The notes under the pieces were generated by a model. That model saw only the letters and a program-made list of their open reading frames with translations, was not told the origin of the DNA and did no database searches. From NCBI GenBank assembly GCA_022385755.1, contig MU278362.1, positions 450,251-514,250 on the forward strand: a stretch of DNA of 64,000 bases, given 5' to 3'. Shown here piece by piece: positions 39,236 to 61,861 of the stretch. The translations under genes and the position numbers were made by a program. Every line of letters starts with the position of its first letter. Within the stretch, counting starts at the first letter, position 1. Source of the stretch: Trametopsis cervina. Lineage: Eukaryota; Basidiomycota; Agaricomycetes; Polyporales; Irpicaceae.

Positions 39236-41118
39236 CTAGGCCGTGTCGCTCTCATGGACGACGCTCATGTATACCGCGTCTCCGTAACTCTCCTTCTTGC
39301 GCAATCCTGCGCTGCGCTTGATGCTCAGACTCAGGTTGCGTGATGAGCCGCGCGAGTCCTTATTCGCTGCATGCCGAGGTGCCCAAGGCTTACCAGACTG
39401 TTGGGAAGAAGTGGGAATACCAGCGTTCTGGAACGGTGCTGGACCAGTTGGTGATACAGCGCTATGCAGGAAGAGGTCGGGGTCGGGGACGTAACCACTC
39501 GGATCGATGATAGATGTTAGGCTACCAGTGAATGAAGCCACGCTCGAAGGTCGGATGTGATGACGATCAACTACCGGTACAGGTTCGGTCTCCGGTTGTA
39601 GATAGTTCAACTGAGAAGATACAGGCTTTGAGGGAGAGATGGGGATAGATGAGGGTGGCTGTGGCCATGAGTTCCCGATGATAGAGCTTGCAGGAGAGCC
39701 TGAGGTGAAATTCGAAATCGCAGGAGGAGGGGTAGCGAGGAGGGTGGACCATCGAGGGCCGACCTGAGAAATAGGTCCGGATGTCGGTGACGAGGTTCGT
39801 GAATGGAGCCCTAGGGTCTCGCGGCCTGTGGGAGACTGCAAGTACGCAAGTGTCGCCGCCTTGAACGACGCATCTGAGTCCGACATTGAGCTTGTGGGTG
39901 AAGCGGGAGTGAGAGGCACGTCGCAAGCAATCGGCGCAAGCTTGGGCTTTCGTCGTGTTGACTCGGGAAGGCGGTCGTCCCATGCAGCACTGGAGAGATG
40001 GACCGGGAGCGGTGGCATAGGCGGGATGAACGTAAATCGCTTCGATACGTCTCTTGAAAGTTGAGAGGACTGGATGAACGAGTCTTCATCTCCTGCCGGG
40101 CGGAGGATCGTTGAGCGGAACCACTTTCCGGGATAACGAAAACCTGACGATGACTCGTCATCTGCACAGAGCAAAAGCCCCACCGCCGCCATGACGCTAA
40201 AGACCAGAGTAGTTGCTGGGGACACCCACCACCAGATTTCGATTCTTGCCATAGACAAATTGTCTGTCTTAGACAGGAAGAGAACATGTGACCATTGGGC
40301 ATGCACATCACCAAGAGAGGTCCACGGACGGAAACCATGAGCCGACGAGATTGCCGCGTAGATATCAAAGATGGAGGCTGCGAGGGTGATCATGGAAGTG
40401 AAGAGCGCCGTTAAGAGCGGACGGAGGAACGTGACCGTGATAAGTCGTGAGGGCACACCAGCCCGATCTGTGATGAGGCGGGAGCGGTGAATGTGCCGCC
40501 ACAGAGCGAGTGTGGCGTATGTAGTTGTACAGATGCAGAGTATCATAGGAGGTATCCAGACCAGGAACAAAGCGGGAACGGACGTATAAGTCGAAGACAC
40601 GCAGCCAAAGTCTTCGGCGAGAACAAAGCGGTGGTCCTGAACAATCGTATCTGCAGAATATGTTAGTGGAGAAGAACGAGGGAAGTCAGATTACGCTTAC
40701 GAAGAGCCATATAGATAAATGGGATGATTAAACATGATGTAAATTCAAGCAGGAATCTGTGAGGGCGGCGTCGCGTGTTGCGCGCGGATGAAAGATAGTG
40801 TAGATGGGCGCATATGCATGTACATGTCAGTGGAAGTGCAAGTCTGGATCCAAGCAGTAATTTCGAACCTAACAGAGTCAGTATGCTGGATTTGCTGGAT
40901 ACGAGGAGGAACCACGTACTGATATCGCACCAAACCTCCGAACGAACGGTCTCATTCGCAGACCATATTATGCTGTTTATTCCCTGTATAAGGTTCGCCA
41001 CCAGAAGCCACGATATCAGAGCCAGAACGGCGACGTTCCGCGATTTAGCGTGCAAGAACGCCAACCCCGACAGCAGGACTGTGCAGAGGAACGATACGAT
41101 GGACAGCTCGGGGCGCAT
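39236..41118 (-). CDS. STE3: STE3-type pheromone receptor with long tail (receptor 1)
   Basis: A class D G-protein-coupled receptor for lipopeptide pheromones at the plasma membrane. Start MRPELSIVSFLCTVLLSG at 41118. Exons carry TM1-2 (VAVLALISWLLVANLIQGIN), VWCDIS, TM3 (KLLLGSRLALPLTCTCICAH), TM4 (FLLEFTSCLIIPFIYMALR), then VLAEDFGC, TM5 (ALFLVWIPPMILCICTTTYA), TM6 (RPLLTALFTSMITLAASIFD) and TM7 (TTLVFSVMAAVGLLLC). The cytosolic tail is about 250 residues, Ser/Pro-rich, far longer than in receptors 2 and 3. The conserved GHR(F/Y)-type and EDFGC blocks are partly altered (DHRFVLAEDFGC). Divergence from receptors 2 and 3 suggests a non-mating-type-specific STE3-like gene flanking the locus; this is inference. 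Confidence 0.88.
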
Positions 41119-44562: not shown

Positions 44563-45299
44563 CATCTACTTGTCGAGCACGAAGACTGACGACCAACTCT
44601 ATTGTTCGAACACTGTCTACAGCACATGCGCGTAACAGGAAATTGAACGCGTCGCTAGAAATCACAGTGCAGGCTTGTGTTCATTGTAATCATCGCTCTC
44701 CCCATGTCACGAATCTCATTGTTTCACTGTACCAGGTCCATGGCTATAACAACCTCCATGATCGGTTCTCCAGTGACGTATGCGAGGTTCGAACAATGGG
44801 ATACATAAACGATCGTACATTCAAGTTGCATACGAAGACAATGGACGGACAATGGTGATGCACGAGTTAAGCAGAGATCGGGGTGGGTGCTCGTATGTAT
44901 GATGGCGATAGCAAGGAAAGCACGTTGAGCAACGATATAGATACACAAGCGACACACAATGGAACCTAATTTCCTGACGTTCCACAGCTCCTTCCTCCTT
45001 TGGGAGGACCCCGACCCCAGATTTCTCATACATACAACAATAAGTTACGTTCCCGAACACATAAATAATGCCAACGTCGAAAGGCGGGCAGAAGAGTAGT
45101 GCCAATGCAGGCGAAAGCGTGTGTGAATGGCGGCGATGCCGGGGTGAATGTCGAATGGGGTACAATATGCGCCACGTAGGGGATAATACCTGCATGTCCA
45201 GAAGCTATATCAGTATTCACGGCAAAGACATATTATTGTGCGATGAAGACGTACCGGCCCTATTCATGTAAGCGTGCGAAGGGGAGTGCGCGGATGCGT
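44563..45299. other. Intergenic
   Basis: 737 bp. Open frames on - (45029-44724 and 45195-44821) have no domain signal and no CaaX end. Nothing else is seen. Confidence 0.5.
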
Positions 45300-45470
45300 T
45301 CATGCAATAATGCACAGCACCCCGGGAGGGTTCGTGTCCCTATGGTCCATGTCGACGGGCGTCGACTGTGTCCCGATGCTCGAAAATCCTGGCGGGTCTC
45401 CGCACGGGTCGGGAGCGATGTGCTCAAGCGTAGTGGCGAATACGTCGAGGGTGTCTGCGAAGGTGTCCAT
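45300..45470 (-). CDS. Pheromone precursor 1 (56 aa, CaaX CIIA)
   Basis: A lipopeptide mating-pheromone precursor. It opens MDTFADTLDVF, the MDxF start typical of agaricomycete precursors, and ends PPGVLCIIA then TGA (45300-45302). CIIA is a farnesyltransferase CaaX box. The body is acidic and has no membrane segment. Maturation would farnesylate the Cys, remove IIA, methylate, and cut the N-terminal part. Single exon, on the strand opposite to receptor 2. An open frame on the other strand spans it and hides it. Confidence 0.9.
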   Translation of the reverse strand: MDTFADTLDVFATTLEHIAPDPCGDPPGFSSIGTQSTPVDMDHRDTNPPGVLCIIA

Positions 45471-46660
45471 TGAGGATGCGGTGATTGTAAAGTGGTGGGC
45501 TACTAGTAAGCAGCGGGTGCGGGCGAGCAGGAAATGCGATATGCGGCTGTGCGAACGAGGGGAGGCATGCCTTTAAAGATTTGAGGGTTAATTGTGACTC
45601 AGCTCGAGGTTCAGTTTACAGTAGAGATGCTGTCGAAACAATACAGTACAGCATGACCGGCTGCGCCCCGATAATTGTTCAGGGCACCTGCACTATGCAA
45701 GTAGGACCCCGGGCACTCACAGGATCAGCGTCGGCTATTTGGTGTTGCTTGCACACTGATCGATCCTTGCGCGGTTGTCCAGACTTCCTTGCTGCACTTC
45801 CACCACGGCGGGATGCTGGAGACTCTAGGCTCAGGGTCAATGAAGGTACGCTGATGAATGTATGAGAAATCAGTCACTACTGATAGGCCGTTCCATCCGA
45901 AAATTAGGGTGCATGCGAGGATACATAGCCTCGTGCCGAAATCGCCAGAGCGTGAGGACACGGAGCAGGAGCTCAAAGCCATACGATCAAGGCCAACCAC
46001 CCCAAGCGACTGCGGATAGCTTTCATGGTGCACCTCCTGCAGTGCGGCGGGTTTCGCGGTGGCTGCGCGATCTAACAACCATTGTTCGGCCGCCACTAGC
46101 AGGCGGGGCGATTATACATAGCGGACCACTCCTCGCCGGAACTTCTGACGGGTTCCTTGAAACTAGCGTGAGCCTCGATATCTACCCCAGAACTCAAGTG
46201 GACTCTTCCGCTGACTATCGAACCGTTATCACGGGTCTCACGATTCCGCGTAATGCTCCAGATGCCATTTCGTGGTGCAGGAATTGGGACAATGCAAGCA
46301 CAAGCAGCTGCGCAGGTACTATATGCGCTCAAATACCAGTAAAATACGCAAAGCTACCGCGGTGCATTGTTGCTCATTAGCGAAATCTAGAGATGTGTAT
46401 CGAATTTACTGCCGACGCGCTATCGGGACCCCGGGTACCTTCTTAACGCCCGTGCAATGTGGTTGTGTTTGAATCGCCCCTGCTGTACTATTGTACGTGT
46501 GCTATAAGATGAGGGCAGCAGACCAGGCTAACACCCCATTATCGCAAACCCACAGCTTTCCCCAAGCGCTGCTTCGAATCGCACACACACCTGCTATTTA
46601 CCTTCGAACGCGTACACCACAACCACTACTCATATCATTCGCACACACCGCGCGATTATC
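45471..46660. other. Intergenic between pheromone genes 1 and 2
   Basis: About 1.19 kb. A 172-codon frame (45862-46380) shows no domain. A possible TATA (CTATAAGATG, about 46503) lies before pheromone gene 2. Confidence 0.5.
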
Positions 46661-46798
46661 ATGGACACCTTTACCGACTCCGTCGATATCATCAACCTCA
46701 TTGAGGAGAAACTAGACCTCAGCAACTCATCGGATCCTCAGGTCGTCGTTGATACAGACCGACCGTATGAGTTTGGCACTATGTGCGTTATCGCATAA
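46661..46798 (+). CDS. Pheromone precursor 2 (45 aa, CaaX CVIA)
   Basis: Starts MDTFTDSVDIINLIEEK and ends YEFGTMCVIA then TAA (46796-46798). The short acidic precursor, MDTF start and CVIA farnesylation box all match agaricomycete pheromone precursors. The segment before the CaaX box (FGT-x-C) resembles that of precursor 4. Single exon, no signal peptide, as expected for export by an ABC transporter of the Ste6 type. Confidence 0.92.
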   Translation: MDTFTDSVDIINLIEEKLDLSNSSDPQVVVDTDRPYEFGTMCVIA

Positions 46799-47545
46799 TT
46801 GGTATGTACACCTCGGACTCGCGCGTGCGAGTATCACTGACTGTTGCGAGAAGCAATTGGATCGTGAACGTTCGCTCTGGCTAGACGTCAGCCGACCTTT
46901 GTTTCGTCGCATGCGTGACGGGTAAGTACCCGCCGGACATCATTTCAATCGTTTCAGAGCTGACCAGTAATCTCTCGCAGCTTTGATGCCATATTCCGCA
47001 TATCATTATCCCATTCGCATGTCTTGAAGCCTTTCTCTTGTTATTTATGTATACATCGCATTCATGCAGTATAGCTACTACGTATGAAAATACATCCGCT
47101 TGTATGTCAAATAACGCCTTCAGAACAATCCGTCAACCAGAAGCATATGAGCTGAAAATAATACGTCTGCAGAAAATTGAGATAACATGACAGCATTGAC
47201 TAGTCATGACCGGTCGCAATACAAATGAAATCGCTATGTTCGAATAAATAAGGTCACTATGTTTAAACAAGGAGTACATAGATAGAGGGGTAGCACTATC
47301 CAACGGACGAAAGCACGAAGGAACTAAATGATTCTGTGGTATGCCGGAACACTTGTTGAGAATCGTGAGGTGGGTAGGTAGTCGCAAAAAACGATAACGG
47401 AAGATGGAGCAGTGACGCGGCGGAGTGAGATTTATTGGAGACAAGTCCGCATGAAATCTGACATCGTGAGGAGCTGCATACGGACAGCCGTCAGCGATAT
47501 ATACCAAGACTCATAGCGAAGTACTTACACGGGAGGATTAAATGC
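46799..47545. other. Intergenic
   Basis: 747 bp between pheromone genes 2 (+) and 3 (-). No gene is seen. Confidence 0.55.
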
Positions 47546-47734
47546 TCAGGAAATTACACAATAAAAGAGGGATCCCTGCCCATTATCGCGCTCTGAGTCA
47601 CAGCATATGGGCCCAGTGTCCGCCCAAGACCCCTGCTGAGACGTGGTAACGGGTGGTGGCGGAATATGTGATGCCATTGAGGACGATTCACTGGGTGGTA
47701 AAGTCAAGTTTGTTATGGTAGAGAATCGATCCAT
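47546..47734 (-). CDS. Pheromone precursor 3 (62 aa, CaaX CVIS)
   Basis: Starts MDRFSTITNLTLPPSESSS and ends GSLFYCVIS then TGA (47546-47548). CVIS is a farnesylation box with Ser as X. The Ser/Pro-rich body includes an inner CC pair (ICCDSE), not found in the other precursors. It ends 418 bp from receptor 2 and points away from it. Single exon. Confidence 0.85.
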   Translation of the reverse strand: MDRFSTITNLTLPPSESSSMASHIPPPPVTTSQQGSWADTGPICCDSERDNGQGSLFYCVIS

Positions 47735-48152
47735 GGTGTAGGGTATCGCTGAAGGCAGGGTTCGGGAATAAAGGCTTGCGTAGTTGACTGCATTACTTCA
47801 GAGAGGGAGCCCATTAAGTATTCCCGGGCCGGCGTCTGCAGATGAGGGGTCAGGTTCTGCAACAGTAGATCACACTCCTGGCGGAGAGAATAGCGGTGCC
47901 ACAGCAGCATTTCGGGGTCTTGCCTGAACAGTTAACGGCCCGAACCGGTACCGCCAAAGCGCCTACCCATCTGCGCGTCTAATCATAATGCAACATTCGT
48001 TCATTGTCCTACGTTCACCAGCATGCGCGAACAATAGTCTTTGTCCTCTCAATGCACGTTAGGATGCATATGTACTCGTGAGCTGCTATACAAGCCTTTA
48101 CTCCCCGCGCTCTGAGTCTTTCCCCTGCGACGCTTGTTCTGCTCACTTCAAC
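47735..48152. other. Divergent promoter region of precursor 3 and receptor 2
   Basis: 418 bp between head-to-head genes, so a possible shared regulatory region. No clear TATA box is seen. Confidence 0.55.
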
Positions 48153-49598
48153 ATGTCAGACCCTCTCTACCCGGCATACACTGTCATAGCATTCATTACT
48201 GCATTCATCGTTCTGATACCCCTCCCATGGCATTTACAAGCTTGGAATGCTGGGACATGTCTTTTCATGATCTGGACATCCATTTCGTGTCTGAACCTGG
48301 CGATTAACTCAATTCTCTTCCATTCTACTGCAGTCGATCTGGCACCTGTGTGGTGCGATATCTGTGCGTTCTAGCCTTTTTGGTTATGCGTTTGGTAGTC
48401 CTGAATGTTTGAATATTCTAGCATCTAGACTCCTTGTAGCTCAAGGAGTTGCTATCCCCGCTGCTTCTCTCTGCATTAACAGGCGGCTGTACAAAATTGC
48501 GTCCATCTCCTCCGTAGCTCGAGTTACACATGCAGAGGTTTGCTGGTGCTCACTTGCTGCCTTAATTTGGAACTTATCATCTTTCAATTCTAGAAACGGC
48601 GCTCGGTGCTGGTAGATATGGCGATTGGGTTGGGCATACCTCTGTTGCAGATTGTCATGCGTAAGTCGTTAACGGTAGTCCTGCTCGGTCGCTATCGCTA
48701 ATTACTATATGTGCAGAATACATTGTTTCAGGTGTGTATGCTCTCGATTTTCTGTCACAGCCACTAAACATGATGCAGGGCATCGCTATGATATCTTCGA
48801 AGATATCGGATGTCTTCCCTTCACTTATAATACCCCGGTTGCGTACCCTCTTTCGATCGTCTGGCCGGTCGTCATAGGCCTTGTATCTGCTTTATATTGC
48901 AGTACGTATTCTCCATGGATTTTGGTGCACGCATCTGTTAACTCGTCTGTAGTACTCACTCTACGCGCGTTTTTCAAACGCCGTGTACAGTTTAACCAGT
49001 TTCTATCACGCAATAACTCTCTTACCGCCAACCGTTACTTCCGCCTCATGGGCCTCGCTACTACAGAGCTGCTCTGTACGACACCCATAGCCGCATATGG
49101 CATGTGGCTCAACATTCAGAACTCTCCAATCAGTCCATGGATAAGCTGGGCGGACACGCACTTCAACTACTCTCAAGTTGACCAGTATCCCGCTTTGCTC
49201 TGGCGCGCTAGTCGCAATACTGTCATCTCCTTCGAGATGACTCGGTGGTCTCCCGTGTTCTGTGGTATCGTCTTCTTCGCATTCTTTGGCTTTGCCGGAG
49301 AGGCTAGGCGCCATTACCGTGAAATATTCGTTCACGCTAGAACAACAATGCAGCGTCCCTTCAAGAAGGTTACCACTGGCAAGCAATGTCCAGAGTACGT
49401 TCCTCATTTTTGTACCATCTATGGACGCTAACCGCATTGAATAGCTCCCCGCTACCTTCATATGCGGTTCATACCGACTCTGTGTCGCTCACGTTCAAGC
49501 CACAGGTCTTCATGCTCGACAAATTTGGCGAAAAGGGTTCCCCATTTGATATCACGAAGTCGCAAATATCGGACTCGGACAGTTCTACCATAGTTTGA
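48153..49598 (+). CDS. STE3: STE3-type mating pheromone receptor (receptor 2)
   Basis: Class D GPCR. Start MSDPLYPAYTVIAFITAF. TM1-2 (LIPLPWHLQAWNAGTCLFMI, LNLAINSILF), VWCDI, TM3 (RLLVAQGVAIPAASLCINRR then LYKIA), the KRRSVLVDMAIGLGIPLL segment, QYIVSGHRYDIFEDIGC (the canonical second extracellular loop), TM5 (PLSIVWPVVIGLVSALYC), LTLRAFFKRRVQFNQFLS, TM6 (GLATTELLCTTPIAAYGMWL) and TM7 (FCGIVFFAFFGFAGEA). The C-tail is short (about 100 aa). Seven exons with GT-AG junctions in frame; one micro-exon encodes QYIVS. It is close in sequence to receptor 3. Pheromone genes lie on both sides, as expected of a PR sublocus. Confidence 0.93.
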
Positions 49599-50331
49599 TT
49601 ACGATATATGTCAATGTATCATGTACTATCACCTTTACGCGTGTACTAATCCGCTATACCGCATCTTAGAGCAGCACAACGTCTTTGAAAGACGATAGCA
49701 CCCCATGTAGTCATATTTACCTTTTGAATACACATCTTAGCCTTGGTCGAATGTTATGGCAAGCATACTTGTACTGACTTGAATTTCTACGGGCACGAAA
49801 TCCTCTATATGTAGTGTACTAGTTGTTGCATCAACCTGTCGATAGAGTAAGATGAACCACATTTGTTGTGCAAACCCGTCTATGATAGATACAGCTGGAG
49901 TTAGGAGTTCTCAGATGAGCCGATAGGTAGAGTGTATTTGCCGACAGTGGACTCCGCCTTAGCATTTCGATGAAATTTGAGGACACGATACATTGAGAAC
50001 AGATAGAAACGAGAGTTACAATCAGAGCAGACCGGACGAACCCCTCGACGAAGCGTTGAGGGATAGTGCTACTACAGATAAAAGTACGGAGACCCTTCGG
50101 AGACCAACAGCTCCGGACGATAGATAGAAAATAAATATAAATAGAACAAGTTCTAATGAGAGTAATCAGGCAATGAAGGAGCACCATATTGAGATGGTTA
50201 CCTACAGAGTTAGACCCCACGGGCTAACAACCCCACGCTGGTGCGTTGGTGAGGCCAAACCATCACGCTATAATATAACGTTCGTCAAGACCATGGTAGC
50301 AAGATAAGCAAACGAGCATACACACCACATC
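49599..50331. other. Intergenic
   Basis: 733 bp between receptor 2 and precursor 4. The minus-strand frame 50220-49831 is hydrophobic but has no match to a receptor or CaaX peptide. No gene is seen. Confidence 0.5.
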
Positions 50332-50490
50332 TCACGCAATGGTGCAGAAGGTGCCGAAGCCCGCAGGCCTGTCTTGATCGGTCGGTACCTGACCAGAGTC
50401 AGGCGAAGCTTGAGCATCCGATGACAGGCTGAGGGACGAGATGTCGTCGCATCCTATGTCTACAGGAAGCACGAGAGCAAATTGGTCCAT
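50332..50490 (-). CDS. Pheromone precursor 4 (52 aa, CaaX CTIA)
   Basis: Starts MDQFALVLPVDIG and ends AGFGTFCTIA then TGA (50332-50334). The reading frame is open further upstream, but the MDxF ATG at 50490 fits the family. CTIA is an acceptable farnesylation box. The FGTFC end resembles FGTMC of precursor 2. Single exon. Confidence 0.88.
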   Translation of the reverse strand: MDQFALVLPVDIGCDDISSLSLSSDAQASPDSGQVPTDQDRPAGFGTFCTIA

Positions 50491-51219
50491 GGTCGATGAT
50501 AGTTTGTATGGAGAACACTGAGAGTGTGTGAGGTGCGGATGGCGGTCTAATGACTCGGCCGAAATGCAGTGCCTATTGGACGAGATATGGGTGAGCAAAG
50601 AGTAAGATGGGGAATATTTCGAGAGGTGTCCTACATCTTATGCCTGACCTATGAGATAGACAATGAAGTACCGGTGGGCACCAATTCACAATCGGGGGTA
50701 TTGTGGATTGAGGCGAGACTCGGCAGGAGCGGCAAGTATTGAGCGTCGTGGGAGAGAATGGGTGGAAGGGTTGGGACAGTGAAAATGCCTCGCAATTCTG
50801 TACTGTTCGAAGAAATTGCGTAGAGCGTAGTTGTCATAGGTGGATGGAATTGTTTGACGGGGTAGATGAGAGTAATTGTACGGGTAATATTGTGGCTTGT
50901 TTGGTGACCAGTGCGACTCATTCACAAGTTAACAAGGACAAATAACGGATCAACTTCTCGGGGTCCCGATATCCGCCACCTCCATCAAGGGCCTGTGCCG
51001 ATCAGAGTTCGAGCGCACGCCGCACAGCGTTGTGAGTTCCGGGGTCTCGATATTCGCGTCCGATCTCCGTGGTCTGATCCGTGAAGGCGTTGCAAATTAA
51101 CGGAAGAATCTGCATTCGTGCAACGAATGTGTATCTCAGAAGGTGCAGATTTGCATGGGCAATAATATCAGCTTCGAGTACTGGGTGTCTCCAATCGAGA
51201 GCAGAAACTGGCAAAGATT
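50491..51219. other. Intergenic, left flank of the retrotransposon
   Basis: About 730 bp ending in the target-site copy AGATT. No gene or CaaX frame is seen. Confidence 0.5.
51215..51219. repeat. Target-site duplication, left (AGATT)
   Basis: AGATT directly before the left LTR, repeated exactly after the right LTR at 56617-56621. A 5-bp duplication is usual for copia integrases. Confidence 0.9.
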
Positions 51220-51665
51220 TAAAGGAAGGTTCGGCGGTTAACTGGACCTTCGTGGCGCGGTAAGCGCGGGCTCGGATCAAGCAGACGAGGACTGGAGAGA
51301 ATAACTTCAATGTCGAGTAGACACTGAGAATGACATATGTATTTACCTGGAGAGAATACTATGTAACGTGTATAAGTAAACGAGTAGGAAATACGAGGGT
51401 ATAAGACTTACACTTCAATGTCGAGTAGACACTGAAGTGAAGGAGTACGAAAGCTACACTATAAATACTAATTCGTCGTGGCTATGCTATACTATGGTCG
51501 CATGCACGACGGCACGAATAGTAGAGTGATCAGTGAAGCGGGAGTTTTACATGGGATGAAACGGAAACAGTATCAGTAAGAGATTTTGTTATCTACACTA
51601 ACCATGTGTGCTCTGCGCACTTATCCTGTCGGCGTCGCAGTCGTTCCGCGACTGGATCTCCAACA
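51220..51665 (-). repeat. 3' LTR of the copia element
   Basis: 446 bp, identical to the LTR at 56171-56616 except CACTGAGAA here versus CACTCAGAA there. It contains an internal direct repeat, ACTTCAATGTCGAGTAGACA, at about 51304 and 51411. Confidence 0.95.
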
Positions 51666-51676
51666 CTCCCCCTCAA
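51666..51676 (-). promoter_or_regulatory. Polypurine tract
   Basis: On the coding strand GAGGGGGAG directly precedes the 3' LTR. This is the plus-strand primer expected for an LTR element. Confidence 0.8.
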
Positions 51677-54600
51677 GCCTCGACGAGTCCCATTGACGCG
51701 GCGAAGTGCTTGGCTTTCATGGACGGCAGTGCTTTCGTGAGGGTATCTGCGGTCATGTCTTCCGTGGGGCAGTAGACGAGGCGGATCTTGTTGTTCTCGA
51801 CGGAGAACCGAATGAAATGGAAGCGAATGTCTATGTGCTTCGTGCGCGCGTGGAATTTGTCGTCGCGAGCGAGCGCGATCGCTCCTTGGTTGTCTGAATT
51901 GATGAGAACCGGTTCGTCGTGGCCGCCGTATACTTCTGCGAGAAAGCTGCAAAGCCAGATGGCTTCCTTTGATGCATGGGTGAGCGCGACGTATTCGGCC
52001 TCGGTGGTCGATAGCGCCACGATGTCTTGTCGCTTTGATGACCATGAGATGGCGCCGCCGATGAGGAAGACATACCCAGAGATGGCGTGGCGGTCCTCGT
52101 TCGACATGCCATCGGCGTCCGAGTAACCAACCAGGTCGACGTCGGAGCTCCCCCCCAAGACCAGACGGAGGTTGCGGGTCTTCTTTAGGTAGGCGTAGAC
52201 ACGCTTGAGAGCTGTCCAGTGAGTGACGCCAGGGTTCGCGGCGAAACGCGCAAGTTGTGTGACTGCAAAAGTGATGTCGGGGCGTGTGGCGACGGAGATG
52301 TACATGAGTGCGCCGAGAGCTTCGCGATACGGCTTATCGCGCATGAATGCAAGGTCGGCGGCGGTCGCGGGACACTGATCCTTTGTGAGGGCGACGTTGG
52401 GGTCGATGGGGAGAGCAAGTGGTTTGATGTCGGCAAATCCATACCGTTCCAGGATTTGGTCGATGTAGCTGCCCTGCGACAGCTGTATCGTTCGCTTGCG
52501 TCGGTCTCTCCTTAACTCGATACCCAGCATCCATCGGATTTCGCCCGAGTCCACTATCTCCAAGTGGGATTTGATCGCGGCCTTGAGTGAGTCGACTGTT
52601 TTGCGGTCGTGTCCTACAAGTGACATGTCGTCGACGTGCACAAAGACAATCAGTACGGTTTGGTCGCGTGGACGTTTATAGTATACCGCGTGATCGTGTT
52701 CCGACCTCGTGAACCCCAGCCGAGTCATGACTTGCCGAAGCGTTTTCGCCCATCGTCGTCCGGCTTGTTTGAGACCGTAGAGGCACGCAGAGAGTTTGAG
52801 GACCTGTCCGGGTTCGAGGCCCTTGAGCTCGATACCTTTTGGTGATTTCATGTAGATGTCTTCGCCATGCTCTAGTCGTCCATAGAGGTAAGCAGACTTG
52901 ACGTCGATTTGGTCGATCTCGTAGCCTTCTTTTGCTGCCAAAGCAAGGATCGCGCGGATAGATGCCATCTTCGCGACTGGTGCAAAAGTGTCGTCAGCGT
53001 TGTAGTCGATCCCATCTACTTGAGTATCGCCTCTAGCAACAAGACGTGCACGCTGCGATGTCTCATTGCCGTGTTCATCTCTCTTGGTGCGGAAGACCCA
53101 TTTGGAATTGATGATGTTGACTCCAGAGGGTGGTGTGACGTATGTCCAAGACTTGCGCTCTTCTAGTCGAGTGATCTCGTCGTCCATCGCAGCTTTGATA
53201 GCTGGCCAGTTCGGGCGTCGCATAGCCTCAGGGAGAGAACGCGGGTCAGCGGATGCAACATCGGACATTGCATGTACCATGTTCGCTGCTAAGACAGACT
53301 CCGGCTCGTCTAGCTCGTCTCCAGTGATGGCTCTGCCTTCCGTGATTTCGCGAAGCTTTGCAGAGGGCTTGCGAATACGCTTCTCGGTGGGCACGTCGTC
53401 TTCAGAAGGGATGATGACGTCGGACGGAACTTCGGTGACCGTGTAGTCCATGGGCGTGAGAGCATGAGTGTGAGCGGGGAGTTTCTCGTTGACAACTTCA
53501 AGATCAAGATCCATATCACCGCGCTCCCCCTCAACGAGAGATGGGGTGCGAGTAGAGAACACAATGTTCCGCTCGACAGTGGCACGGCGTGTCGTTGGCC
53601 AGTAAACCCAGTACCCATTGGAGGTGAGATCGGGCCCCAGCCAGCGACCCTCCTCAGCTCGGTCAGAGAGCTTCGAAGTTTTCGCGGCCTTGCGCACAAA
53701 ACAGATGGCACCGAAAGGATGGAGGTCACTGACATCGGGCACTGTCCCAAACCGGCACTCGTAAGGCGTGCGGTAGTCAATCGCACGCCGCGCAGTGCGG
53801 TTGAAGAGGTAGACGGCGTACTGGTGAGCATAGCCCCACAGCGTCCGTGGCAGACCTGAACCGGCTAGCATGGCGCGCACAGCATTGAAAATGGTGCGGT
53901 GGCAGCGCTCAGCGGCGCCGTTGTGTTCAGGTGTGTCGTGCACAGTTAACTTGCGCTCAATGCCGCGACGAGCAAGGTAGGCGGTCATGTCATCTGAGAG
54001 AAACTCGCCGCCGCGGTCGGAGTGAACAATCTTGATGCGGACACCATGCTGAGTGTCACAGCTGGCCTCAAAGGTGACGAATTTGACGAAGGCTTCGTCC
54101 TTGGAGCGCAGAATGGGTTCCTCCAGCCAAGACGTGGCGTCGTCGAGCAAGGTGAGGGTGTAGAGGCCATGGTGAGCCGTCTGTACCGGCGCGGGACCCC
54201 AGACATCCATATGAATGATATCGCCAAAGGATGTCGCGCGTGGTGAAGTGCGGTAGGCAGCAATAGCTTTCCGCGTAGCTTTAGAGCGAAGGCAAGCTTC
54301 ACACTCGACCTCAGTGCGGTCAGTGAGTGAAACGCCCGCAATAGCGCCATTCGCGAGCATGCGGCGGATGTAGGAGTACGAGATGTGCCCTAGACGAGTG
54401 TGTAGCTCGTAGAGGGACACTCCGACAGCTCCAGCGGTCAAGGCCTGCTCATCGTGGGTGACTCGATAAAGGCCGTCGACCTTGGGGATAGTCGCCACGC
54501 GCGATCCTGTGGGCCCGCGCCGAATGGTACAGGTGCCTTGCCAGAAGGACACATGCAGGCCGGCGTCGTCCAGTCGAGGTAGCGAGACCAGGGTTGCTGA

Positions 54601-56109
54601 CATGGCGGGCGCATAGAGGACGTTGGTAAGGCGGTAGCGCGTGGAACCGGTGCCGTTGGGTGCATTGACATACAGGTCGCCGGCGCCGACAGCCTGGAAG
54701 TGTTGTGAGTTGGCGGCGCGGATAGGACGTGGATGGATGTCGCGAAAGTTTTCGAGTAGGTGGCGGTAGGGCGTCATGTGACTGGTAGCGCCCGAGTCAT
54801 AGATTTCCACGGTTGAAGTTGGCTCGTCGTCTGGTTCAGTGATGACCGCCACGGCCAGCTCAAACGCGGCCCATCCTTCGTCAATGGTGACAGCTGCAGA
54901 TGCGGCTGTCTCCTTTGGCTTAGCAGTTGCGGCAGCCTTTGCAGGTGCGTCCGCGGCTGAATTCGCTTTCTCACCCCCCTTCTTTTGAGCAGGAGTGGGG
55001 CACACGTTCGACTTGTGGCCCTTACCAGTACAGCGATAACAGGTAACGTCGCTGTCTGCAGATGAAGGGTTGTCAGATGACTGACGACCTTTTCCCTTCA
55101 GCTTCGAAGGTTTCCCTCGCGGCTTCCCCCTCTGCGGCGCGGTCGCCACGTTGGCGCTCTCCTCCCGCTTCGGAGTTTTCGACCCTCCGGAAGATGTTTC
55201 ACGGGATCGCGCTTCGGCACGCAGCAGCGCAATCACCTCGTACGGATCAACAACAAGAGGTGCGGCCGCAGTCGCGTTATGCACGCGAATGGAGTTTTCG
55301 TATGCCCAAACCATAGGTTTGAAGGCGTGCGGAATGGAGGAGATAATGGCGCTCAGAAACTGGGAGTCCGTGATGGGCGTGTTGGCCTCAGTGAGGTCGT
55401 CGCGGATTTGAAGCAGTTCATCAAGGTGAGCTTGTAGCTTCTTCCCGTCGTTGCATTTCATTGAGAAGAGCTTCTCTAGCGTCGATGCACGTGTGAGGGA
55501 AGTGTGCATGCCGAAACGTCGTCGTAGAGCCTCCATGACGTTGAATGGCTCCTTCTGAGACTTCACCGTCAGCAAGATGGCATCAGGCATTTTTGACATC
55601 AACGCCGCACGCAGCGCACTGCGTTCGGCTTCCTTATCCTCCTTGAGGATATCCGCTGTTCCGCAGCCATCAGCAGCGATAGCAACGCGTTCGGACCAAA
55701 TGTGATAATTGGATCCATCAGTTCTGAGTTTTGGTACGTCGGCAAAGGCTTTGATGATGTTGCTAGCCATTGCTGATTTGGATCGAGGTGCCGCAGCGCC
55801 GTGATTTTCCAGTAGGACTTGAACTTCCTCCGCAGAGTCCGCTCGTGGGATTTCGGAGTTACGAGTTCCGCGAGATCGACGAAAGATCCGTGTGACCTGA
55901 CTAGGGTCGGTGTCTTCGTTCCAATCAGAATCGACAGAGGTACCTGCTACACGCGAGTAGCGGTTTGGACAAGGGGATTCCTCGCAAGGTTCCCAGAGAC
56001 TTTCCGGATCAGTGTGATCACGAGAGCAGTCGCAAAGCTCAACTTTGTCGAAGTAGTGATGTAGTCCTTCACAGGGAAGTAGATTTTGGTCCCTCCTTTG
56101 CCTCGGCAT
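51673..56109 (-). CDS. Copia gag-pol polyprotein, 1478 aa
   Basis: One continuous frame. An N-terminal extension of about 113 residues leads to the gag region (MASNIIKAFADVPKL, DGSNYHIWSERV). Then come the CCHC zinc knuckle CYRCTGKGHKSNVC (about 357-370), aspartic protease DSGATSHM (about 437), GAG-pre-integrase (LHTRLGHISYSYIRRML), integrase (HMDVWG, HSDRGGEF, then EHNGAAER; about 635-720), reverse transcriptase (KWVFRTKRDEHG about 1004, DQIDVKSAYLYG, FVHVDDMSLVG about 1160) and RNase H (GYSDADGMSNEDR, STTEAEYVAL, TKHIDIRFHFIR; from about 1326). Integrase before reverse transcriptase defines Ty1/copia. All visible catalytic residues are present and no stop or frameshift is seen, so the element may be active. 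Confidence 0.97.
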   Translation of the reverse strand: MPRQRRDQNLLPCEGLHHYFDKVELCDCSRDHTDPESLWEPCEESPCPNRYSRVAGTSVDSDWNEDTDPSQVTRIFRRSRGTRNSEIPRADSAEEVQVLLENHGAAAPRSKSAMASNIIKAFADVPKLRTDGSNYHIWSERVAIAADGCGTADILKEDKEAERSALRAALMSKMPDAILLTVKSQKEPFNVMEALRRRFGMHTSLTRASTLEKLFSMKCNDGKKLQAHLDELLQIRDDLTEANTPITDSQFLSAIISSIPHAFKPMVWAYENSIRVHNATAAAPLVVDPYEVIALLRAEARSRETSSGGSKTPKREESANVATAPQRGKPRGKPSKLKGKGRQSSDNPSSADSDVTCYRCTGKGHKSNVCPTPAQKKGGEKANSAADAPAKAAATAKPKETAASAAVTIDEGWAAFELAVAVITEPDDEPTSTVEIYDSGATSHMTPYRHLLENFRDIHPRPIRAANSQHFQAVGAGDLYVNAPNGTGSTRYRLTNVLYAPAMSATLVSLPRLDDAGLHVSFWQGTCTIRRGPTGSRVATIPKVDGLYRVTHDEQALTAGAVGVSLYELHTRLGHISYSYIRRMLANGAIAGVSLTDRTEVECEACLRSKATRKAIAAYRTSPRATSFGDIIHMDVWGPAPVQTAHHGLYTLTLLDDATSWLEEPILRSKDEAFVKFVTFEASCDTQHGVRIKIVHSDRGGEFLSDDMTAYLARRGIERKLTVHDTPEHNGAAERCHRTIFNAVRAMLAGSGLPRTLWGYAHQYAVYLFNRTARRAIDYRTPYECRFGTVPDVSDLHPFGAICFVRKAAKTSKLSDRAEEGRWLGPDLTSNGYWVYWPTTRRATVERNIVFSTRTPSLVEGERGDMDLDLEVVNEKLPAHTHALTPMDYTVTEVPSDVIIPSEDDVPTEKRIRKPSAKLREITEGRAITGDELDEPESVLAANMVHAMSDVASADPRSLPEAMRRPNWPAIKAAMDDEITRLEERKSWTYVTPPSGVNIINSKWVFRTKRDEHGNETSQRARLVARGDTQVDGIDYNADDTFAPVAKMASIRAILALAAKEGYEIDQIDVKSAYLYGRLEHGEDIYMKSPKGIELKGLEPGQVLKLSACLYGLKQAGRRWAKTLRQVMTRLGFTRSEHDHAVYYKRPRDQTVLIVFVHVDDMSLVGHDRKTVDSLKAAIKSHLEIVDSGEIRWMLGIELRRDRRKRTIQLSQGSYIDQILERYGFADIKPLALPIDPNVALTKDQCPATAADLAFMRDKPYREALGALMYISVATRPDITFAVTQLARFAANPGVTHWTALKRVYAYLKKTRNLRLVLGGSSDVDLVGYSDADGMSNEDRHAISGYVFLIGGAISWSSKRQDIVALSTTEAEYVALTHASKEAIWLCSFLAEVYGGHDEPVLINSDNQGAIALARDDKFHARTKHIDIRFHFIRFSVENNKIRLVYCPTEDMTADTLTKALPSMKAKHFAASMGLVEA

Positions 56110-56158
56110 CCAACAAGGGTGTCGAGATAGAAATCGTCCGCGAGATTAGAGCCTCGCG

Positions 56159-56170
56159 GGGCTCATAACC
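56159..56170 (-). promoter_or_regulatory. Primer-binding site (initiator tRNA-Met anticodon arm)
   Basis: On the coding strand GGTTATGAGCCC directly follows the 5' LTR. Its complement, GGGCTCATAACC, is the anticodon arm of initiator tRNA-Met in yeast and other fungi. This fits copia-type priming by the 5' half of a cleaved tRNA. Confidence 0.85.
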
Positions 56171-56616
56171 TAAAGGAAGGTTCGGCGGTTAACTGGACCT
56201 TCGTGGCGCGGTAAGCGCGGGCTCGGATCAAGCAGACGAGGACTGGAGAGAATAACTTCAATGTCGAGTAGACACTCAGAATGACATATGTATTTACCTG
56301 GAGAGAATACTATGTAACGTGTATAAGTAAACGAGTAGGAAATACGAGGGTATAAGACTTACACTTCAATGTCGAGTAGACACTGAAGTGAAGGAGTACG
56401 AAAGCTACACTATAAATACTAATTCGTCGTGGCTATGCTATACTATGGTCGCATGCACGACGGCACGAATAGTAGAGTGATCAGTGAAGCGGGAGTTTTA
56501 CATGGGATGAAACGGAAACAGTATCAGTAAGAGATTTTGTTATCTACACTAACCATGTGTGCTCTGCGCACTTATCCTGTCGGCGTCGCAGTCGTTCCGC
56601 GACTGGATCTCCAACA
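56171..56616 (-). repeat. 5' LTR of the copia element
   Basis: 446 bp; partner of 51220-51665 with one visible mismatch. It carries the element's promoter. Confidence 0.95.
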
Positions 56617-56621
56617 AGATT
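56617..56621. repeat. Target-site duplication, right (AGATT)
   Basis: Exact copy of 51215-51219. Confidence 0.9.
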
Positions 56622-58311
56622 GGCGGTATAACAGTATCTGAGAGCATTGCAGGTGTAAAAAGTGGCTGTCACGTGGTAAATACGAACACACGGCCGCGGG
56701 CGGCTTTTAGTCGCGTCGTCCCAGTCTGGACACGAACCTTCACCGTTACTCTTCCTCGCGTACCGCAAAACCAACAGATAACTTACAGCAAAAGGTTTGG
56801 GGGCTCTTAGGATGGCTAGCATTACTGTCTCCGCAACGCAGAAACGCGGACCGACTGATCGCGAAACCTATGGTGGTGTTCCACATGATGATCGCGACTG
56901 TGACTGGATCCTAGTAAACTTATGAGGTACGCAGCCTGTGCACGCACTGCTTGGGCTTACTGCTACTTGAATCTTCAGGAGGTTGAAGGGCTTACGGGGC
57001 TGTGTACTCTGTGGCTTTCTTGTGTGGCCCGGGCCGCCTCCTTGGCCAAACAATTTTTATGGCAGTGGCTGCCAGCGTTTCACACGATTCCAGGCTGTGG
57101 AGGGTCGGCCCTCGAGAACAGAAGGAGATAGACTTGAATATTGAGGGTTTGAAGGTGCGTCCTGGCGTTGTCCCCGTGTGTTCGCTTTTCATGATGGCAG
57201 CGGGAGTAGACCCTTATGTCGAAGATTCCTGCGCGCCCGGCAGCGTAAAATCTCGACCACCCTCACACGGCACAACATGGTCTCTACTCCGCTGGTACAT
57301 GGAACGCGATTTCGAACGTGATTAATCCGCCCGACATCAGACTGAGCTGACTCCTAGGGACCAATACGCGCAAAGAAACCACCAAATTTTTGAGGGTTGG
57401 ACTTTACGGTGGTCCGCAGCGGCGAAACATGACCTTCCATGAAGGCGTCGTATCAGATTCCTCTGCTCAGGTGCTCCGTGCGCAGAGTGAAGATTGCACA
57501 CCTTGCAAGCCGCAATGCAGATGGCGGAGGGTCGCCCCCCGGGAACTTACAATCAATATCTCGCGCTACCCTCAAACGAGTCAGCTCCGTTGATGAATAC
57601 TCGAATTTTAGGACTCCGGGCGGGATGCTGTGATAGTCGTGCAGGGTCTGCGCGCCCCGTGCGGGTGTGAGCATGCGGTACTGCGATACCCGCCACTGCA
57701 TGACTCAAGCCAGGGCTGTGAGTGTCAGTGGTCCTGCATCAACTTCACAGGGAGCCTAACTCAGACAGATGCATTCCGGTATCCCGCAATTACAGTAATC
57801 CGCAAGGAAGAGTTATGCAATAAATAAACAGTTTATCGGAAGGGCAAGACTTTACAAGCAAGAATAAATATTATGCTACGACATTGATCTACGGCGAATA
57901 CTGCGCTAAGCAATTATCAAACCAAGTACAATTGCATGCTACCGATGCTGGAAAAAAGGGGGGAAAGAACGGAGAAGGGGAGAGGTGTGCGCGGCGACAA
58001 GTGATGCATCTCAGGCGAAGACAATGGCGAGAGTAACTGTAAGTTTATTGGGCGCCTCGATAGGTGTCGCAAAAGTGAGTGATTCCTGTATAGCGAAGTT
58101 AGATCGGTGTGAGGACGACTGATAGTCAGTTTGGAGCTCACCAGCACTCATCCCGACACAGCGGGGGTCGATGAACGAACAAGATAATGATAACGTGAAC
58201 GGAGGTCGCGGTTGGAGTCGAACGCGGAAGGGAAGAAGAGCTACGGAATAGTTGTTTAGTACGATGCTCGACAACGTCAAGCCTCACGAAATAACTCACG
58301 CAAGAGGACCC
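56622..58311. other. Intergenic, right flank of the retrotransposon
   Basis: About 1.69 kb. Open frames such as 57002-57325 (+) have no recognised domain. A CaaX-like end on - at 57790-57804 has no start. No gene is supported. Confidence 0.5.
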
Positions 58312-58434
58312 TCATGCGATGATGCAGTATACCCCTGGACGACCGGCTTGGGAATCGGTGTCGCAAGGCATGGGGTAGGATGCTGTATCCTCTCGCTCCC
58401 CGGGGATGGCAATGAGCTCGTCGAAACTATCCAT
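58312..58434 (-). CDS. Pheromone precursor 5 (40 aa, CaaX CIIA)
   Basis: Starts MDSFDELIAIPGERED and ends AGRPGVYCIIA then TGA (58312-58314). It is the shortest precursor in the window. The PGVxCIIA end closely matches precursor 1 (PPGVLCIIA) although that gene is 13 kb away on the other side of the retrotransposon. An unrelated + strand frame covers it. Confidence 0.9.
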   Translation of the reverse strand: MDSFDELIAIPGEREDTASYPMPCDTDSQAGRPGVYCIIA

Positions 58435-59067
58435 CTGGATGAAGAAGTGCGAGAGTGTTGGGGTGTTTAGTGTAGGTGAGTGTAAGGTTGGATGCGGGAG
58501 AGTGTGGGCTAGCTGATGGTAGTGTTATACGTGCGGTGTAGGGAATCAGCTATGTGGGAGGATTCCGAACAGTGAACCCTTTTGAAGGTGGGTAGGAACG
58601 CACAGTAGTCGGCCGGAGTGCAATTGTCCAGATACGGGTGCCGTAATAGGCGCTCGTACTACACTGTGCACTTTACAGCGCTCACAGCAAGGTACCGGAC
58701 AATGAAACCCGTATATGTCTTTTTCTGCTGTTGTGCTCTCTAACACGGCTTCGATTTTCACTTACCGGCCAGGACAAGTCTGCGGGCCAGAGTACCACGT
58801 TAAAATCGGATTTCAGCCAGGACCCCGAAACCACATCCCACAATAGCACCGAATAGACGCCGATACACACGAGGCAGCACTATAGGGTGCTGTGCCGGTG
58901 AATCACAAATAACGATAACACCCTCTCAATATAAGGGTATAAGTAACTACAGCTCTCTTTCTCTGCTCCCCACGAACCGTTTTTTCGCGCACAACTTGAA
59001 CAGCCAACCCTCTGTCCAGCCCTCAGCCCATCCGCCCGCATTGCTACGATCATACGCAATGGCAGTC
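58435..59067. other. Divergent region between precursors 5 and 6
   Basis: About 630 bp. TATAAG at 58930-58935 and again at 58938-58943 lie about 130 bp before precursor 6. No other gene is seen. Confidence 0.55.
58930..58943 (+). promoter_or_regulatory. Tandem TATA motif before pheromone precursor 6
   Basis: Two TATAAG motifs two bases apart, about 125-135 bp before the ATG at 59068. Position suits a core promoter with a leader of about 100 nt. Confidence 0.45.
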
Positions 59068-59265
59068 ATGGATACATTTTCGACCATGGACATTACCACC
59101 ATACTCTCCCCCGACGATACCGGAGGATACCCCGAATCGCCTTCCGCACCCTCAGGGGGCGACATCCAAACCACACCATCCCTCGGTGGAGACTCTATGC
59201 CAGTGAGCTACGAACATATCGGCTCGCAGCCCACCTCAGCGTGGAGCTACTGTGTTATTGCGTGA
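59068..59265 (+). CDS. Pheromone precursor 6 (65 aa, CaaX CVIA)
   Basis: Starts MDTFSTMDITTILSPDD and ends TSAWSYCVIA then TGA (59263-59265). An ATG three codons upstream (59059, MAV) is in frame; the MDTF start is preferred because it matches the family. The body is Pro/Gly/Ser-rich and acidic. It lies about 930 bp before receptor 3 on the same strand. Confidence 0.92.
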   Translation: MDTFSTMDITTILSPDDTGGYPESPSAPSGGDIQTTPSLGGDSMPVSYEHIGSQPTSAWSYCVIA

Positions 59266-60195
59266 GCCTCGATGGTGACGCATTTCTATTTATATGGCTG
59301 GGCTAAATTGTAAGTCGTTGATGGCTTTCCGTGTCGCTCTTGAGCTTACTCCTTTACCCGTTAGATCGTATATTTACCGCCCTTCCTCCGTGCCATATCC
59401 CGGAGCTGGTCTTAACCCATTGGAGTGTTGCTTCGTATTTTACGCACGCCCACACTACACTTTTCTATCTTTATTGTTGTATCTCTTCTAGATACGCTGT
59501 CCCATTCACCTTGCTTGTATCGTACGGATGTACACCACCTTCTTTCAAACCCTCCTCACGCTTCTAAAGTTTCAAGTCTCTAGAAACAGGGTGTCGAATC
59601 TGGAAATCAAAGAATGTCTCCCCCGTACTATTATGTCATGGTCTCCTTGCTGTTCTCGCTGTTGCTTTGCTTTGTTTAGCCCTTATTTGGTTGTCTCGCT
59701 TGCAAACCCATATCAGCCCATGTTGCCGATAGACACGAGCACGCTCCCTGAGAGACAGTAAACATGAAATATCCGCATGGGACTGGCCATTGTTGGAGTG
59801 AACGTGACGGACATGATCGTGACGCCCTTTTATGGGATGTTGTGTTGAAATCGGTCACGTCAAGCTGGTATTGATCACACTGGGTCGCTTTATCCTGTTC
59901 ATATTCCAAGACGGACGTTCGCATAGGCTATACGCCTACAATATGAAAGTTGAAAGTTGACAAGAACATAGAACAAAGCTAGCGGCTAAGCTGGATGCAC
60001 GTTTGGGCGCTAATCCTGACAATGGAGCTTGACCAGCACACTCATGTTTGTGTACGACAGGACAATGGCCTCTTTCACTCCCATTATGATTCGCTACGTT
60101 CCCAGTACCGCTTACATTGTGCCCTGTTTCTTAAGATGTGAATCACTGCCCCCATTCCTCTTCCCTACACTCCCCCGCTTGTGCCATTCACAACC
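59266..60195. other. Intergenic before receptor 3
   Basis: 930 bp with no CaaX frame and no recognised gene. It should contain the receptor 3 promoter. Confidence 0.55.
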
Positions 60196-61861
60196 ATGGG
60201 CGATATCAACTACCCTCTATTCCCTGTTTTCGCTTTCGTTGGTTTCTTCGTAGGTCTCATTCCATTCTGCTGGCATCTTCAAGCGTGGAACGCTGCCACA
60301 TGTGCGTATATGCTGTGGTCGTCGATCGCCAGCTTGATTGTCTTCGTCAACTCCATCGTTTGGAATGGCAACATTGCGAACCCAGCTCCGGTCTGGTGTG
60401 ATATCAGTGAGTCGCACGTCGCAGGCATCCTGCTCATTACTAAACGTTTTGCTTTAGCTACGAAATTTATCATTGGTGCTGGGGTCGGTATCCCTGCTTC
60501 TTCTCTCTGCATCAACCGGAGGTTGTACAAAATTGCTTCAGTACGTGCTGTCAGCATAAGCTATGAAGAGGCATGTCATATTGTTTGTTACTGGCGGAAC
60601 AAGGCTCTAACCTACTCCCAGAAACGGCGTTCAGTCATAGTCGACATATCTATCTCTATTGGCATACCCATCATGGTTATGGCGTTGCGTACGTCCAACC
60701 AGCTGCTTTCTCGACTCCTTTTGCTGACGGTAGAGCTCAGATTATATCGTACAAGGTCACCGTTACAATATCATTGAAGATATCGGCTGCATTGCAACCA
60801 TCTTCAATACACCACCCGCATACCCACTGGTATACATGTGGCCGGTTCTTCTCGGCTGTGTATCATTCGTCTATGCATGTGCGTTACTCGCTCTCCAATG
60901 AGTGTACTCTGGCTGACTAGTTTTTAGTCCTCACATTGCGCTCGTTTTGGATGCGCCGCCTTCAGTTCAACGAACTTATTTCTGCGACAAGCTCGATGAC
61001 TATCAATCGATACTTTCGGCTTATGCTGCTGTCGTGTCTCGAAATGATGTTGACAATCCCTCTCACGAGTTACAGTATCTACCTCAACAGCCATGGCCGT
61101 ACCCTGTCCCCGTGGATCTCATGGTCCGACGCTCACTTCAACTTTTCTTTCATTGAAACGATCCCTGCTGTCTACTGGAGGAGTGACAAGCAATATGCGA
61201 TCGCGGTAGAGATGGGTAGATGGATATACCCATGCTCTGCACTTCTGTTCTTCGCACTTTTCGGCTTCGCTGAGGAGGCGAGACGTAACTACCGTGCTGG
61301 GTTCTCCTGGCTGAGAAGAATTGTCACTCTGCGCGGTAGCAACACCAACTCCTTGCGTGGCAGATCGCATCTCAAAGGGTACGCCTTATTGATGCTCAAT
61401 TTAATTCCCCGCCTGACGTGAGTTGTCTTTCCAGCTTTGTTCGAGATACGAAGGCGCAGGCTCTCGCGTCTGAAAGTACTTTGCCGCCCTATTCGCCGCG
61501 AAAATGCCTCCCCAAGAAGACCGACTCCATTTTCTCTTCTGTTATCAGCTTCCCAGACGGCGATCTTGAGAAGGGACTACCCTCCGCAACTTCTACGCTG
61601 CCTACAATCATAAGCCCATCGACAACAATAATCGCTTCGCACGAGGACGATTTCCCCAGTTCGCCGACAGATAGTTTTGACGAACACACTTTACCTCCGC
61701 CTCCCGCTGTCTACCGGCCTTCTCCATCGCCACCATATCATCGCCCATTTTCGCCGCCATCTGTGATGCCGGTGACACCACTAACCGCGGAACCGACAAC
61801 GCCCGATTCCGCAACACCGCTGCGCGTATTAATCCACAGGGAATCAATCCAAGAGTTCTAA
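60196..61861 (+). CDS. STE3: STE3-type mating pheromone receptor (receptor 3)
   Basis: Class D GPCR. Start MGDINYPLFPVFAFVGFF. TM1-2 (VGLIPFCWHLQAWNAATCAY, IVFVNSIVW), VWCDIS, TM3 (KFIIGAGVGIPASSLCINRR then LYKIA), KRRSVIVDISISIGIPIMVM, then DYIVQGHRYNIIEDIGC, TM5 (YPLVYMWPVLLGCVSFVY), LTLRSFWMRRLQFNELIS, TM6 (MLLSCLEMMLTIPLTSYSIY) and TM7 (YPCSALLFFALFGFAEEA). The cytosolic tail (about 170 aa) is Ser/Pro/Thr-rich. The exon layout equals that of receptor 2 and many blocks are shared (HLQAWNA, SLCINRRLYKIAS, INRYFRLM/ANRYFRLM, WISW-D-HFN), so the two arose by duplication. Precursors 5 and 6 lie just upstream. Confidence 0.94.

Follow-up and report, generated by a model that had tools for sequence, protein, structure and literature searches.

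Does a cluster of genes for STE3-type receptors and CaaX-type pheromone precursors on one contig of Trametopsis cervina, a white-rot polypore of the family Irpicaceae, constitute the pheromone/receptor (PR, or B) mating-type region of this fungus, and does it decide mating type? We analysed a window of 64,000 nucleotides (positions 450,251–514,250 of contig MU278362.1, here C15) from an assembly of 29.4 Mb in 59 contigs that represents one haplotype; positions given without a contig are those of the window. The cluster is very probably the PR (B) region of T. cervina, with one sublocus of receptor R2 and four precursors, another of receptor R3 and two precursors, and a linked receptor, R1, that is probably not of the mating type. 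By itself it is an ordinary, standard PR region of a well-known kind, and R2 and R3 are already deposited. The analysis supplies the PR region of an Irpicaceae white-rot polypore with six precursors that are largely missed by profile searches, and it ties the R1 lineage to the PR locus, probably across several species.

Receptor genes of the cluster

When the whole assembly was searched with the PF02076 profile, four STE3 genes were obtained, three in the window (R1, R2, and R3) and one on contig C11 (R4). The matches fell exon by exon, with E down to 1e-51 on a single open reading frame (ORF), and all 12 listed exon matches belonged to these four genes. A second haplotype inside the assembly was considered and none was found, the STE3 genes totalling only four by this profile.

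R1–R3 were spliced by hand (Table 1). All three read through without stops over two to six introns, which rules out processed or broken receptor copies. The models of R2 and R3 were confirmed, since each is 100% identical, over its full length, to a deposited T. cervina STE3-domain-containing protein (listed as P0121 and P0001, respectively). The deposited R3 also agrees with removal of the second intron (60571–60621), which is of the GC-AG type. A common exon layout had been claimed for R2 and R3 in a preliminary description of the locus; the intron sites are indeed shared, except that R2 has one intron more (48,732–48,778). In a hydropathy scan at one threshold, with overlapping segments merged by eye, R2 showed six clusters and the other three receptors (R1, R3, and R4) seven each. 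C15 is 695,018 bases long and the contig carrying the deposited R2 and R3 proteins 710,816 bases, which may reflect another assembly version or strain.

Table 1. Positions of the receptor, precursor, and neighbouring features (window positions unless C11 is named)
Feature	Position	Strand	Remarks
R1, divergent STE3-type receptor, 593 aa, long tail	39236..41118	-	exons 40920-41118, 40701-40868, 39236-40650; 2 introns
R2, STE3 receptor of Rcb3/B-alpha-3 group, 375 aa	48153..49599	+	exons 48153-48363, 48422-48537, 48594-48660, 48717-48731, 48779-48901, 48953-49394, 49445-49599; 6 introns
R3, STE3 receptor, group of T. pubescens B-alpha-2 and, further out, Bbr2, 468 aa	60196..61861	+	exons 60196-60406, 60458-60570, 60622-60688, 60741-60878, 60928-61378, 61435-61861; 5 introns
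Precursor 1, 56 aa, CIIA	45300..45470	-	PF08015 E 0.008, below cut-off
Precursor 2, 45 aa, CVIA	46661..46798	+	PF08015 E 0.036, below cut-off
Precursor 3, 62 aa, CVIS	47546..47734	-	PF08015 E 0.0015, below cut-off
Precursor 4, 52 aa, CTIA	50332..50490	-	PF08015 E 1.6e-4, above cut-off
Precursor 5, 40 aa, CIIA	58312..58434	-	no Pfam match
Precursor 6, 65 aa from MDTF (68 aa from ATG at 59059), CVIA	59068..59265	+	no Pfam match
CLA4-like PAK kinase gene	26053..29735 (outer ends approximate)	-	multi-exon: PH-like segment, PBD, kinase
copia-type long terminal repeat (LTR) retrotransposon, recent, between subloci	51220..56616	-	LTRs 51220-51665, 56171-56616; open gag-pol frame 51673-56145
R4, fourth STE3 gene	C11:583,100-584,625	+	PF02076
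Precursor-like CaaX ORF, 38 aa	C11:574,707-574,823	-	8 kb from R4
Precursor-like CaaX ORF, 38 aa	C11:612,985-613,101	+	28 kb from R4

Pheromone precursor genes

Six frames of the whole window were scanned for ATG ORFs of 25–130 codons ending in a CaaX box. Exactly six were returned, all within 45,300–59,265 and none elsewhere in the window, so that the three receptors and six precursors of the preliminary description were recovered in full. All six start with MD[TRQS]F. The bare count is weak evidence, as 60 shuffled windows held on average 2.1, and at most 6, CaaX ORFs starting at any Met. CaaX ORFs with an MD[STRQA]F start, a pattern defined after the six had been seen, numbered six in the real window and none in the 60 shuffles. 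Chance CaaX ORFs are thus ruled out by the MDxF start common to all six and by their clustering in 14 kb. Relaxing the CaaX boxes brought the window count to 10 ORFs, the four added to the six precursors having no MDxF; scanned in this way, 44.6 kb from elsewhere in the genome, in five stretches, gave none. Two window ORFs that start with MD, 10,972–11,139 (CTTP) and 55,599–55,718 (CVRR, inside the copia element), were set aside since they have no MDxF.

The Pfam pheromone profile passes its cut-off for one of the six precursors, is weak for three, and is absent for two. With E allowed up to 10, a genome-wide search with this family gave two places only, namely precursors 4 and 3. Judged by the profile alone, this fits the earlier expectation that automatic annotation would miss most of the precursors. 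Several had also been said to lie under antisense frames, which holds for only two of the six if the antisense frame must have 60 or more codons and cover 80% of the precursor. The genome was searched for further precursors with the pattern TGYRTNATHGCNTRR, which covers its own CaaX boxes only. It occurs at 45 sites, including four known precursors; the other 41 were all examined, six had an ATG ORF ending in C[IVM]IA, and one of these, on C11, was precursor-like.

The overall identity among the six precursors is 27–48%. The ends of precursors 2 (DRPYEFGTMC) and 4 (DRPAGFGTFC) are alike, as are those of precursors 1 (GVLC) and 5 (GVYC), the latter pair across subloci. Read by eye, an acidic-basic pair (E/D-R/H) lies 13–17 residues from the end in five of the six; an ER/EH pair is reported ~10–15 residues from the end of Coprinopsis cinerea precursors (PMC3140503). 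Precursors 1–4 lie within 2.7 kb of R2, and precursors 5 and 6 within 1.8 kb of R3.

We infer processing, ligand pairing, and mating-type function from known systems. Before secretion, the CaaX cysteine of each precursor would be farnesylated and the peptide trimmed at an internal charged site. When the pheromone of a partner with a different allele binds to the seven-helix receptor encoded by the matching sublocus, a G-protein and MAP-kinase pathway leading to nuclear migration and clamp fusion would be switched on. The pheromones of a strain should not activate its own receptors. A self-activating (homothallic) strain or species would have R2 or R3 switched on by one of the six pheromones from its own nucleus; this haplotype does carry all six pheromones together with both mating-group receptors, and nothing in the sequence forbids it. 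We regard such self-activation as very unlikely, since heterothallic mushrooms are described as ordinarily having one or several pheromones beside each receptor of a B sublocus (PMC3140503).

Receptor lineages and subloci

In a tree of 53 receptors, R2 grouped with C. cinerea Rcb3, Hypsizygus STE3.1, and Trametes pubescens B-alpha-3 (18 rows, support 98/95). R3 fell into a 19-row group of Polyporales (96/95) that includes T. pubescens B-alpha-2; at a deeper level, this group joined Schizophyllum commune Bbr2 in one of 31 rows (100/100) that also includes the long-stemmed clade of R1. R2 and R3 thus stand with known mating-type receptors and R1 in a clade of its own (100/100). Because R2 and R3 fall into separate receptor groups and each has its own precursors adjoining, the region is read as two receptor-precursor subloci, which bears out both this division and the identity as an agaricomycete PR region put forward earlier. 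The genes, their integrity, and the receptor lineages are direct observations, as is the separation from the homeodomain (HD) locus described below.

The arrangement resembles that of other agaricomycete B loci (S. commune B-alpha/B-beta, C. cinerea B, Flammulina velutipes matB), where STE3 genes likewise stand with one or several CaaX precursors per sublocus, receptors belong to the same groups, HD/MIP lie elsewhere, and other STE3-like receptors occur alongside. It differs in its span (~16.6 kb, measured from precursor 1 through R3) and in the recent copia element that separates the subloci; the B locus of S. commune is reported to measure 32 kb, with 7 kb between subloci (PMC8161036). A receptor cluster is also common to the PR loci of phlebioid and other Polyporales (Phanerochaete chrysosporium, Rhodonia placenta), and close receptor relatives were found in Phanerochaete carnosa, Cytidiella, and Irpex. 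The PR locus of phlebioid and other Polyporales is reportedly treated by James et al. 2013. Receptor-like genes beside B are reported in Postia placenta and P. chrysosporium (PMC8161036).

Does the locus decide mating type?

Control of mating type by at least one of R2 and R3 is likely, judging from the known systems. The preliminary description had called the cluster a mating-type region; its B/PR identity is supported, and determination of mating type in T. cervina is a probable reading of one haplotype.

Over the 53 receptors, R3 paired with Irpex lacteus (100/99) and then with Panus, Somion, and Abortiporus (97/96), not with Cytidiella or Irpex rosettiformis; we take Panus, Somion, and Abortiporus to belong to families other than Irpicaceae. 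In a 56-row tree of R3-type receptors, Trametes and Ganoderma each fell into three deep clades. A single clade was rejected both for the 10 Trametes rows (P value of the approximately unbiased test, p-AU, 6e-7) and for the four Ganoderma rows (p-AU 1e-8), the test groups having been named after the tree was seen. Deep R3-type lineages cutting across genera in this way are as would be produced by long-lived alleles or by old paralogues. R2 is 71% identical to its counterpart in Phlebia brevispora (Meruliaceae) and 58% to that in Cytidiella melzeri, which belongs to T. cervina's own family, and this order was kept in 2000 of 2000 column bootstraps. R1 ranks the two species the opposite way, with 41% for Phlebia and 64% for Cytidiella over only 140 columns (0 of 2000 bootstraps for the R2 order). 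Cristinia gives the same reversal, with 70% against 58% for R2 and 46% against 73% for R1.

Several points weigh against a role in mating-type control. The evidence is the sequence of one haplotype, to which the deposited R2 and R3 of T. cervina are identical, and orthologous PR loci exist in bipolar species without a mating-type function. A single clade of Irpicaceae R3 rows was not rejected at 0.05 (p-AU 0.091; 0.066 without I. rosettiformis). Grouping R2 with Cytidiella was likewise not rejected (0.21), nor was the clade that also takes in Phlebia (0.43). R3 ranks Cytidiella over I. rosettiformis (69% and 62%), just as R1 does (72% and 66%), and hence gives no reversal. The R2-like row of Cytidiella is a long branch, so that a faster gene in that species could explain part of the R2 reversal, and the discordance in ranking could reflect hidden paralogy instead of alleles. 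Because neither the Irpicaceae R3 clade nor the R2–Cytidiella clade was rejected, the signal of trans-species lineages is no more than suggestive where T. cervina itself is concerned. That R3, unlike R2, has no reversed species ranking makes mating-type control slightly less probable.

The same observations bear on a reading in which only one sublocus, R2 or R3, is polymorphic and determines mating type, the other being fixed. The reversed ranking was seen in the window for R2 only, and in Grifola frondosa, a species with six receptors, a single PR sublocus has been suggested to be the determining one (PMC10607315). We consider this reading doubtful, however, as R2 and R3 both fall into groups with known mating-type receptors and both have adjoining precursors.

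Somewhat less doubtful, though still on the unlikely side, is a PR orthologue that has ceased to decide mating type: T. cervina would be bipolar and HD-controlled, with pheromones and receptors acting downstream without allele specificity. The bipolar P. chrysosporium is reported to keep three clustered receptors in a B-orthologous locus (PMC4101180), and the locus of R. placenta is also described as seeming to have lost its mating function (PMC8305134). Among the literature matches listed, judged by titles and the starts of abstracts, there was no paper on the mating or the PR locus of T. cervina. On the other side stand the six divergent precursors and the two intact mating-group receptors that have been retained, and the species ranking of R2 (not of R3) opposite to that of R1; both are still compatible with a loss of specificity. 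Since orthologous regions in bipolar Polyporales have reportedly lost it, control of mating type by R2 or R3 is left as likely but unproved.

The divergent receptor R1

R1, which starts at 41,118, had been described as divergent, long-tailed, and set apart, and so it proved. About 300 of its 593 residues follow the last hydrophobic cluster. Its relatives are 12 proteins with E < 1e-70, among them those of Cytidiella, I. rosettiformis, Phlebiopsis, P. carnosa, Cristinia, and Phlebia. Seven rows formed the R1 clade (100/100), in which the Irpicaceae rows stood together (99/97), as did two Phanerochaete/Phlebiopsis rows (100/99). A stem of 4.6 changes per column connects the clade to the interior of the Bbr2 group, a placement that is unsure. 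The motifs NRRLY, RYFRLM, and FGFAEEA, common to the R2 and R3 types, are absent from the R1 lineage, which conserves other motifs in their place, for example ITVTFLRPL in four of the seven rows. We infer from this replacement that the coupling of R1 has changed.

An R1-like protein apparently shares a contig with an R2- or R3-like protein in four of six species (in Cytidiella, with both), as judged from equal listed contig size alone. In Phlebia the listed contig sizes of the R1-like and the R2/R3-like proteins are not the same, and the 120 matches listed per search included no R2- or R3-like protein of Phlebiopsis. The linkage of R1 to the PR locus is probably old.

Could R1 be a third mating-type receptor of the locus? 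It is linked and intact, only 4.2 kb separate its start from precursor 1, and its clade attaches inside the Bbr2 group, if by a very long stem. Nevertheless, its relatives keep to one clade in which rows of related species stay together, its core identity to Cytidiella is 72–73%, and the motifs of the R2 and R3 types are missing from its lineage. A mating-type role for R1 is therefore the least likely of the readings considered; from its sequence relationships, it is probably a non-mating-type receptor of a separate, conserved lineage.

In its place beside the B locus and its long tail, R1 resembles the brl genes of S. commune and the STE3.s genes of F. velutipes. The brl products are reported to have long, variable C-termini and to stand apart from mating-type receptors (PMC8161036). 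The likeness is one of position and tail; the R1 lineage forms its own clade, and an 821-aa receptor of S. commune groups with Bbr2 (98/94), not with R1. Among 14 matches to R1 in deposited proteins (six of the 14 without a name, at most 54% identical), none was a T. cervina protein. R1 may thus be missing from the deposited T. cervina annotation or differently modelled there, a possible annotation gap.

A second, unlinked cluster

The precursor-like ORF found on C11 is one of a pair, the two being 71–73% identical and lying one on each side of R4 (Table 1). The peptide has no Pfam match, and at E up to 10 it matches only these two places in the genome. The similarity of the pair covers the ORF and ~18 bases beyond; the comparison of one 5' flank spanned 176 bases. 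When seven stretches of C11 (70 kb) were scanned with relaxed CaaX boxes and a minimum length of 22, 13 ORFs were obtained, two of them precursor-like. A further ORF at C11:623,454–623,555 (+ strand), 33 aa from its MD and ending in CLIL, is unlike the pair.

Because the peptides bracket R4, this receptor is their natural candidate, a pairing suggested by gene positions. C11 carries a second, unlinked pheromone/receptor cluster, perhaps of the reported non-mating-type kind. Pheromone-like genes away from the PR locus in other mushrooms have been reported as non-mating-type (PMC4101180; PMC8305134), and whether non-mating receptors interact with pheromones is said there to be unknown (PMC8305134). 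The C11 genes resemble those of A. bisporus, C. cinerea, Laccaria bicolor, and Pycnoporus cinnabarinus in being a similar CaaX pair away from the PR locus, but differ in flanking an STE3 gene on both sides. In addition, the GGGSGNGAYC consensus quoted for C. cinerea (PMC8305134) is not seen at the ends of the C11 peptides.

Tentatively, three kinds of module might be distinguished in this genome: the mating pair R2/R3; the phlebioid lineage of R1, with its helical core kept and its cytoplasmic motifs replaced, coupling outside the usual G-protein route or damping it; and R4 as the receptor of its two flanking peptides, an unlinked and self-contained module signalling within the colony and not between mating types. 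This scheme is speculative and, in our view, rather improbable as a whole. If true, C11 gives a concrete ligand-receptor candidate for non-mating receptors. C11 is the most useful new lead of this work, as it offers a direct way to test what is sensed by non-mating STE3 receptors.

Setting and neighbours of the locus

An HD exon and MIP lie together on contig C1 (496–499.6 kb), in an HD mating-type locus at 494.5–499.6 kb, and the PR region lies on C15. Even if the two contigs abut, HD/MIP and R3 would be at least 679 kb apart, a physical distance only. Three C1 ORFs beside MIP were tried for a second HD gene and gave no Pfam homeodomain. Minus-strand ORFs beside MIP suggest a divergent gene and may be that second HD gene. 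Another homeodomain gene, of the KN type, lies away from MIP at C4:609838–609951 in an open frame of 614 aa.

The CLA4 gene noted earlier near the cluster is present as a CLA4-like kinase gene ~10 kb from R1, with its PBD and PAK-type kinase domains at 26.1–28.5 kb. PF00786 (PBD) matched the ORF at 27321–28394, with PBD also at 28293–28511, and PF00069 (kinase) the ORF at 26056–26784; the nearest solved kinases are PAK1–PAK3. The PH-like segment was read by eye from the ORFs, not from a Pfam match. A CLA4 neighbour is common, though not universal, at agaricomycete PR loci. In contrast to T. cervina, CLA4 is described as unlinked to matB in F. velutipes (PMC3140503).

Elsewhere in the window, a tRNA-Thr at 12.3 kb was the only RNA gene predicted by ARAGORN and by Rfam at its curated thresholds. 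The copia element between the subloci is flanked by a 5-bp target site duplication, AGATT (51215–51219 and 56617–56621), and its LTRs differ at one of 446 sites (445/446 identical). Since the LTRs are near-identical and the target duplication is present, the insertion is taken to be recent. None of the genes identified in the window is broken by it. Further matches to the LTR region lie on contig C16; those on C19 and at other places of C15 are weak.

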